Assembly: GCF_001418575.1 (NCBI RefSeq) | Contig: NZ_LIQR01000057.1 | Span: 1 to 37,720 of the forward strand | Source of the DNA: Peterkaempfera griseoplana | GTDB taxonomy: Bacteria; Actinomycetota; Actinomycetes; Streptomycetales; Streptomycetaceae | Direction of reading: 5' to 3' | Length of the DNA: 37,720 nt | Part shown: positions 26,975 through 28,096 of the stretch, one piece after another | How positions within the stretch are numbered: the stretch's first letter is position 1 | How the letters are laid out: each line of letters begins with the position of its first letter | Translations under genes and position numbers: made by a program | The notes under the pieces: generated by a model | Seen by the model: only the letters and a program-made list of their open reading frames with translations | Told to the model about the DNA's origin: nothing | The model's database searches: none

Positions 26975-27060
26975 GTCGAAGGCCTCTCGCCTCGAGTTAC
27001 CGGGTCGGACGGCTGCGTGGTGAGTGCCGTACGACGGATGCCCATGGGTGGGGTGCCCGT

Positions 27061-27082
27061 TTCCGGGGTCGATGCCCCGGAA
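27061..27082 (-). promoter_or_regulatory. Hairpin in the ftsZ mRNA leader
   Basis: A perfect 8-bp stem TTCCGGGG / CCCCGGAA with a six-base loop lies about 90 nt before the ftsZ start and downstream of the predicted promoter. It is far from the ribosome-binding site, so a role in mRNA stability or attenuation is more likely than direct occlusion. Function is inferred. Confidence 0.45.
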
Positions 27083-27099
27083 TGCCGACCGCCGACCCG

Positions 27100-27124
27100 A
27101 ACCCTAACCTTGAGGTTTAGGGTT
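27100..27124. repeat. Inverted repeat upstream of ftsZ
   Basis: Arms AACCCTAACCT (27100-27110) and AGGTTTAGGGTT (27113-27124) pair over 11 bp with a single bulged base, around a two-base centre. It stands out as an AT-richer island in GC-rich DNA, about 45 bp downstream of the predicted ftsZ -10. It could be an operator or an RNA hairpin. Confidence 0.5.
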
Positions 27125-27130
27125 ACTGCT

Positions 27131-27170
27131 GTGTCAGTGTCTCTTTCAACGTCCTGATGACACAGGACAC
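27131..27170. promoter_or_regulatory. Cluster of four GACAC/GTGTC motifs, candidate WhiA site
   Basis: GTGTC occurs at 27131-27135 and 27137-27141, and GACAC at 27159-27163 and 27166-27170: two copies on each strand within 40 bp. GACAC is the core bound by the sporulation regulator WhiA, and ftsZ is a known WhiA target in streptomycetes. The last GACAC overlaps the predicted -10 hexamer. Confidence 0.65.
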
Positions 27171-27195
27171 TAGGTCGATGCGCGGCTGCGTTCAA
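27167..27195 (-). promoter_or_regulatory. Predicted ftsZ promoter
   Basis: On the minus strand TTGAAC (27190-27195) and TAGTGT (27167-27172) are separated by 17 bp, a good principal-sigma match. The start of transcription would lie about 185 nt before the ftsZ start. Streptomycete ftsZ usually has several promoters, so others may be present. A weaker pair beginning TTGAAA lies just downstream. Confidence 0.6.
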
Positions 27196-27313
27196 CGAAC
27201 ACGCCGAGCCTCCTGCTTTTCTTTTGAGCCTATGTGATCACCCTGCGGCCCACTCAGCCGGGGTGGACCATGGTCCGGCCGCCGGCGCCCGGCGTCAACA
27301 CCCCTACGAGCCG

Positions 27314-28096
27314 TCAGCCCGCCGTGGCCGGCGCGTCCGGAGCACTGACGTCGTACGTCCGGGCCGGCCGGGTCAGCAGCGCGGTGAGCACCGCGGCCTT
27401 GCGCGACCCCCGCTCGGCGCTGCCCCACAGCACGGTTCGGCCGCCGTCCAGCCGCAGTTCGATGTCGTCGAAGGAGTGCACCTCGACCGCCGCGGCCTTC
27501 CCCGCCACCGCGGCCGGCAGGTCCCGCGCCACCTGCACCGCGGCGGCGATCAGGGCCTTCTGCGGAAAGGCCGCCGCCGCGTCCCGGGCCGCCGGGGACT
27601 CCTTGAGCTCCACCACCGGTACGCCCCTGGGCGGCGCCGCGTCGGTCGCGAACCGCACCCCGGAGGCGTCGACCCGGGTGTAGCGGCCGTCGGCCTCCTT
27701 CACCGCCGCCACCGCCCGGCGCTCGGTGATCTTGATCCGCAGGGTGTGCGGCCAGCCCCGCCACACCTCCACCCGGTCCGCCTTCCGCAGCCCGGCCGAA
27801 ATCCGTCGCCGCACCGCCTCGAGGTCCACCCGGGCCAGCGGGCCCCCGGGGTGCACCCCGGCCGCGGCGACGACCTGCTCGGCGGTCAGTTCGTGGTTGC
27901 CGGTGACCGCCACCGTGCGGACCTGGAGCACCGAGGAGAAGAAGACCAGCCAGACGCAGACCGCCGTCAGCACCGCACAGAGCGCGGCCAGCACGGCCAC
28001 CCCCCGCCGGGACAGCCGGAGGCGGGGCGGCGACCCCTCGGCCGCCGCCCGCTCCGGCTGCTCCCCGCGGCGCTGCGGGGCGATCGGCTCAGCCAC
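27314..28096 (-). CDS. ftsQ: Division protein FtsQ/DivIB
   Basis: FtsQ is a bitopic divisome scaffold that recruits late proteins. The 260 residues have a cytoplasmic N-terminus (1-31), one membrane helix (about 33-55), an external POTRA domain starting at [17 protein letters not shown] (59-75), and the FtsQ beta domain with [20 protein letters not shown] (110-129 region). Length is normal. The ATG at 28096 overlaps the end of murG by eight bases. The 339-bp gap to ftsZ downstream carries the ftsZ promoter. Confidence 0.96.

Follow-up and report, generated by a model that had tools for sequence, protein, structure and literature searches.

As we read them, the four WhiA-type motifs crowded upstream of ftsZ in Peterkaempfera griseoplana belong to a conserved ftsZ promoter of the sigma-A/HrdB type, P2. 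One copy (motif A) is its -10 hexamer, and the other three (motifs B, C and D) are lineage-specific sequence in the interval that separates P2 from the following conserved block. Activation of P2 by WhiA, together with WhiB, most likely proceeds mainly through element E, a GTGTY pentamer beside the -35, and the GACAC at D may serve as an accessory WhiA contact where it is present. We hold this explanation as a whole at a probability of about 0.6, and binding of WhiA at element E is a step that we infer from sequence comparison.

The ftsQ-ftsZ spacer and the P2 promoter

The window, that is, the whole stretch of 37,720 nucleotides that was analysed, contains a 339-bp spacer between ftsQ and ftsZ that houses all four motifs (Table 1). 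The genome carries the WhiA gene as a single copy (PF02650 match, E 1.2e-20 in a profile search), and its translated stretch matches the WhiA chains of PDB 8dy7/8dy9 at E about 1e-154. For comparison, 209 distinct Streptomycetaceae genomes were fetched and 208 of them, from 17 genera, were analysed, leaving out L199, whose upstream sequence was too short, as well as duplicate loci of the same genomes; the spacer region was recovered by query in 297/297 sampled family members. The genus of the window (g1) is represented in the collection by three genomes, the congeners being 91-92% identical to the window, and the largest genus sampled (g10, n = 90) probably corresponds to Streptomyces sensu stricto.

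Table 1. Features of the ftsZ upstream region, with positions in the window
Feature	Position	Strand	Basis or conservation
ftsZ coding sequence, 398 aa	25778..26974	-	ORF and translation
Candidate FtsR-type operator, 25-bp imperfect palindrome AACCCTAAACCTCAAGGTTAGGGTT	27100..27124	-	17/25 identities with the C. glutamicum FtsR site
Right dyad arm TGACACAG	27129..27136	-	pairing tests
Motif D, GACAC, within the right dyad arm; begins 11 bp upstream of AACCCT	27131..27135	-	GACAC in this register in 61/208
Motif C, GACAC	27137..27141	-	motif scan; 3/3 g1 genomes
Left dyad arm CTGTGTCA	27158..27165	-	
Motif B, GTGTC just after the -10, within the left dyad arm	27159..27163	-	47/208, only g1 and g14
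Motif A, GTGTC inside the -10 (TAGTGTC)	27166..27170	-	GTGTC in 184/208
P2 -10 hexamer TAGTGT	27167..27172	-	TANNNT 208/208, TAGTGT 184/208; C next in 208/208
P2 -35 hexamer TTGAAC, 17-bp spacer	27190..27195	-	TTGAAC 178/208; spacer 17 or 18 in 208/208
Element E, reading GTGTT (in other genera GTGTC), 2 bp upstream of the -35; proposed principal contact of WhiA	27198..27202	-	GTGTY 207/208 and 12/12 other-family genomes
BldD-box-like TCACATAGGCTCA	27225..27237	-	conserved block in most of the family
ftsQ-like coding sequence, upstream neighbour	27314..28096	-	ORF; identity from dcw-cluster position and sequence

On the forward strand, a motif scan of the window reads the cluster as GTGTC at 27131-27135 and 27137-27141 and GACAC at 27159-27163 and 27166-27170, and in the direction of ftsZ the order is TAGTGTC-CTGTGTC-...-GACAC-T-GACAC, 161 to 196 bp ahead of the GTG start codon. 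The preliminary description had counted two GTGTC and two GACAC within 40 bp and had let one of them overlap a predicted -10 TAGTGT, and it was exact on both points; the 40 bp are 27131-27170. The strict arrangement matches once in the window, where shuffled sequence gave an expectation of 0, and a whole-genome scan showed it to be unique in its own 8.24-Mb genome; GACAC is otherwise scarce in the window (68 observed vs 102 expected). By simulation, four motifs fall within 40 bp in 3/300 windows of 37.7 kb and in 1/3000 spacers of this composition, which is unusual, not extraordinary. Moreover, because one of the four copies forms part of the -10 hexamer, it is no independent observation. Read with their 3′ flanks the window copies are GACACTA, GACACAG, GACACTG and GACACAG, and none is followed by GC.

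That the motifs lie over the ftsZ promoter, as had also been claimed, agrees with the comparison, in which TTGNNN and TANNNT hexamers of the sigma-A/HrdB type, 17 or 18 bp apart, are conserved in 208/208 Streptomycetaceae spacers. Motif A has lost GTGTC in 24/208 genomes, where it reads TACTGT (20), TAATGT (2), TAGGGT (1) or TAGGCT (1), all of them still TANNNT. Thus motif A is conserved as a -10 and not as GTGTC, and conservation of GTGTC over the -10 was rejected as evidence for WhiA. Published work describes three ftsZ promoters, vegetative, sporulation and constitutive (PMC4852450), and gives ftsZp2 as HrdB-dependent (PMC6344877). Like this developmental promoter, P2 is a sigma-70-like promoter in the ftsQ-ftsZ spacer, and TAGTGT would be the -10 of ftsZp2, the start of P2 transcription being likewise a predicted position. 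A sequence-only model of the P2 block matches 14/15 genomes from other families of the order, and a class-wide search for the block gave 33/197 genomes at E <= 0.01, 16 of them within the family and the others weak; of the 14 non-family loci of this search that were read, L355 and L356 are the two situated upstream of ftsZ. Both come from the distant family f9 and carry the element GGCGTGTC upstream of ftsZ with altered spacing, and L356 has TTGACA and an FtsR-like palindrome upstream of ftsZ as well. A stricter scan for E. coli consensus promoters and terminators detected neither.

Candidate operators for other regulators lie close by. The BldD-box-like candidate sequence TCACATAGGCTCA overlaps a possible upstream -10 TAGGCT (27227-27232), and TAGGCT or TAGGGT is conserved in most of the family. 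BldD is reported to repress ftsZ (PMC3781837, PMC4850268). Downstream of P2, in the ftsZ leader, the palindrome AACCCTAAACCTCAAGGTTAGGGTT resembles the C. glutamicum FtsR site (reference like AACCCTAAAGTAAAGGTTGAGGGTA), with identities of 15-22/25 across 208/208 genomes, compared with 10-15 for shuffled sequence (n = 60). FtsR is a MerR-type activator whose operator was published for C. glutamicum ftsZ and proposed for other actinobacteria (PMC6683498); as there, a 25-bp inverted repeat stands upstream of ftsZ, and here it adjoins the motif cluster and is not inside it.

Conservation of element E and of the four copies

The most invariant stretch of the spacer, TCGGCGTGTYCGTTG, contains the GTGTY of element E. 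This element was absent from the motif list of the preliminary description, yet it is better conserved as a candidate WhiA site, reading GTGTT in 192/208 genomes and exactly GTGTC in 15/208, and the one exception of the 208 has an insertion. Among 12 loci fetched from the neighbouring families f41 and f42, 12/12 have GTGTY at E and a -35, followed by a -10 of TAATGT or TACTGT; A is lost there while E is kept, which we count in favour of the explanation given at the outset.

For calibration, the upstream regions of nrdR and whiA, two WhiA targets in PMC3781837, were aligned. The aim was to determine how far GACAC stands from the promoter, and the alignments yielded flanking sequence only: GACACGC is present upstream of nrdR in 16/26 genomes (20/26 loci were parsed, and the count uses 26 as denominator) and upstream of whiA in 17/26 genomes. 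The reverse complement of element E, CGRACACGCC, is close to this GACACGC, a likeness that is suggestive only as a WhiA signature. The genome of the window itself, unlike most relatives, has no GACACGC upstream of its own nrdR (L406) and whiA (L001) loci. At nrdR, the ChIP distance of 94 bp (PMC3781837) and the candidate GACACGC at about -190 do not match. With GTGTT, element E reads AACAC, one base off GACAC, and no documentation of WhiA binding to AACAC was found in the accessible parts of the literature; WhiA does footprint on GACGC at treZ (PMC3781837), and thus a one-base variant can be bound by WhiA. Because element E abuts the -35, its conservation may also serve sigma or another factor. 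In the structure of WhiA and WhiB with sigma-A RNA polymerase, WhiA reportedly contacts GACAC upstream of the -35. By that geometry, element E is placed as the GACAC is in the complex on the sepX promoter (PDB 8dy7, 8dy9). The WhiA ChIP peak of S. venezuelae is 158 bp upstream of ftsZ (Table 1 of PMC3781837), and in g10 the -10 copy lies mostly near -160 relative to ftsZ; the peak does not tell E apart from A or D, and base-level WhiA sites at ftsZ were not found in the accessible literature.

All four motifs occur together in 1/208 genomes, that of the window only. Motif B is found in g1 (3/3) and g14 (44/52), which makes 47/55 in these two genera and 0/153 elsewhere, and it is absent from 15 of the 17 genera. 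GACAC in the register of D to AACCCT is held chiefly in g10 (49/90). The two congeners retain 6/8 copies, close to the chance level of ∼5/8 predicted by our own arithmetic for 5-mers at 91-92% identity, and the conservation in close relatives on which the preliminary description had made its claim depend was thus largely missing.

These counts bear on the proposal, drawn earlier from the density and inversion of the motifs, that the four copies form an inverted array to which WhiA, possibly joined by WhiB, binds cooperatively, and that ftsZ of this species is driven in this way, which we now consider quite improbable. The exact, dense and genome-unique arrangement speaks for it, as does the known activation of ftsZ by WhiA, and in g14 three motifs are common in the same stretch (28/52) and four occur in 3/52, although never as this inverted set. 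Against it stand the rarity of the full set, the narrow range of B, the constraint on A as a -10 and the copies lost in congeners; moreover, binding across the -10 and the transcription start would be predicted to cause repression and not activation, and the array was seen near ftsZ in 0 of 118 other stretches among the matches listed (FtsZ signature or P2 block in fetched DNA). Many inverted GTGTC/GACAC arrays are present in several Nitrospirae assemblies (L220, L222, L226, L227, L229, L252, L259 and others), where they are probably an unrelated dispersed repeat. WhiA binding has been described as monomeric (Bush 2013, PMC3781837), which offers no basis for cooperativity in an inverted array. 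What survives is the regulatory link itself, because the WhiA gene is present and direct activation of ftsZ by WhiA with WhiB was published for S. venezuelae (PMC3781837, PMC4850268), that is, for the same gene and regulator family; the four copies as its cooperative platform are not supported. The S. venezuelae case differs in that it belongs to another genus and the four-copy array does not occur in g10. If g10 is Streptomyces, its lack of motif B (0/90) means that WhiA control of S. venezuelae ftsZ needs no such array. Alternatively, B, C and D might be chance or drift in a fast-changing spacer and bind nothing, which is compatible with the explanation preferred here and is in our judgement a real if minority possibility. 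The spacer length of 22 to 114 bp by our own parsing and the near-neutral retention of copies in congeners are in line with drift. So are the 15,116 GACAC copies of S. venezuelae, of which WhiA occupies just a fraction (PMC3781837); the abundance of GACAC makes WhiA targets difficult to predict. On the other side, GACAC-class pentamers rank 6th/274 in the spacers of g10 and 4th/331 in those of g14 and g1, and thus motifs B-D may be used, and D keeps its register to AACCCT in 61/208 genomes.

The inverted repeat after the -10

The inverted arrangement of the motifs is in part due to a dyad immediately following the -10, with arms that differ from genus to genus. They read CTGTTC/GAACAG in g10, CCTGTCCC/GGGACAGG in g7, CCTGTCTC/GAGACAGG in g9 and CCTGCGT/ACGCAGG in g2, staying largely complementary, and both right-arm changes in the congeners leave G-U pairs; stems are weak or absent in several members of g3, g10, g11, g13 and g15. 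Among 43 representatives, selected out of the first 97 genomes for k-mer dissimilarity, the mean pairing run was 5.0, compared with 4.30 (sd 0.15) when arms were swapped between genomes. An offset scan gave z 3.7 at the dyad position, and offsets 14, 17 and 53 also gave 3.0-3.7. In tree simulations, which probe palindromicity more than covariation, runs of at least 6 occurred in 40% vs 2-3% simulated, the long runs being matched in 0/400 and 0/1000, while the observed mean pairing was reached by 6-7/1000. In the A2 set (55 unique spacers of exactly 36 bp, from 152 unique spacers), pair counts were 73.5% vs 70.9% shuffled, and both-side changes were 21 vs 11.4 shuffled, with 1/500 at least as high; the number of pairs with a both-side change showed no excess (5 vs 5.3 shuffled). 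RNAalifold gave no consensus structure, and G-U cells (32) were in no clear excess over C-A cells (27), the wobble pairs being without strand preference. The pairing tests were consequently rejected as proof of RNA structure. Rfam gave no family match, the one sub-threshold match (E 4.2) being at chance level. The ftsZ leader (26975-27167, minus strand) has a more stable fold than shuffles (z = -3.45) and forms a row of hairpins.

The dyad is regarded as real in most genera on these comparisons, and compensation is moderately supported. It could act in transcripts that begin upstream of P2, as an RNA stem-loop, or over the start of P2, as an inverted repeat in the DNA; compensatory change would then have maintained it, and in g1 the arms would just happen to read CTGTGTCA/TGACACAG. 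The complementarity of genus-specific arms, the arm-swap, offset and long-run results, the both-side changes in A2 and the leader fold are in keeping with such a function, and the null RNAalifold result, the unremarkable number of pairs changed on both sides, the strand-neutral wobble pairs, the comparable z at other offsets and the weak stems of several genera tell against it. Moreover, the left arm is probably part of the P2 discriminator, and thus P2 RNA may lack it; the dyad may act as RNA or as DNA. We regard this account as somewhat unlikely, and it does not exclude the explanation by P2 and element E. Unlikely, too, is the fuller version in which a rapidly evolving, structure-preserving inverted repeat on the start of the developmental ftsZ promoter would, across most Streptomycetaceae, tune FtsZ for sporulation as an RNA or DNA element, with the order-wide GGCGTGTYCG beside the -35 as the true WhiA/WhiB contact.

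Consequences for ftsZ control

Under the preferred explanation, in which A is the P2 -10 and WhiA would act mainly through element E, the locus is, on the present comparison, the known WhiA/ftsZ sporulation circuit in a new genus, with one copy really a -10 and a motif set that is lineage-specific. It also gives a caution, since dense short motifs over a promoter may be just a -10 and the arms of a repeat. The element beside the -35 is proposed as the more promising WhiA candidate. Order-wide, and like the GACACGC at whiA and nrdR, it would be a longer candidate WhiA signature that is directly testable at ftsZ, whose rise sets off septation for sporulation.
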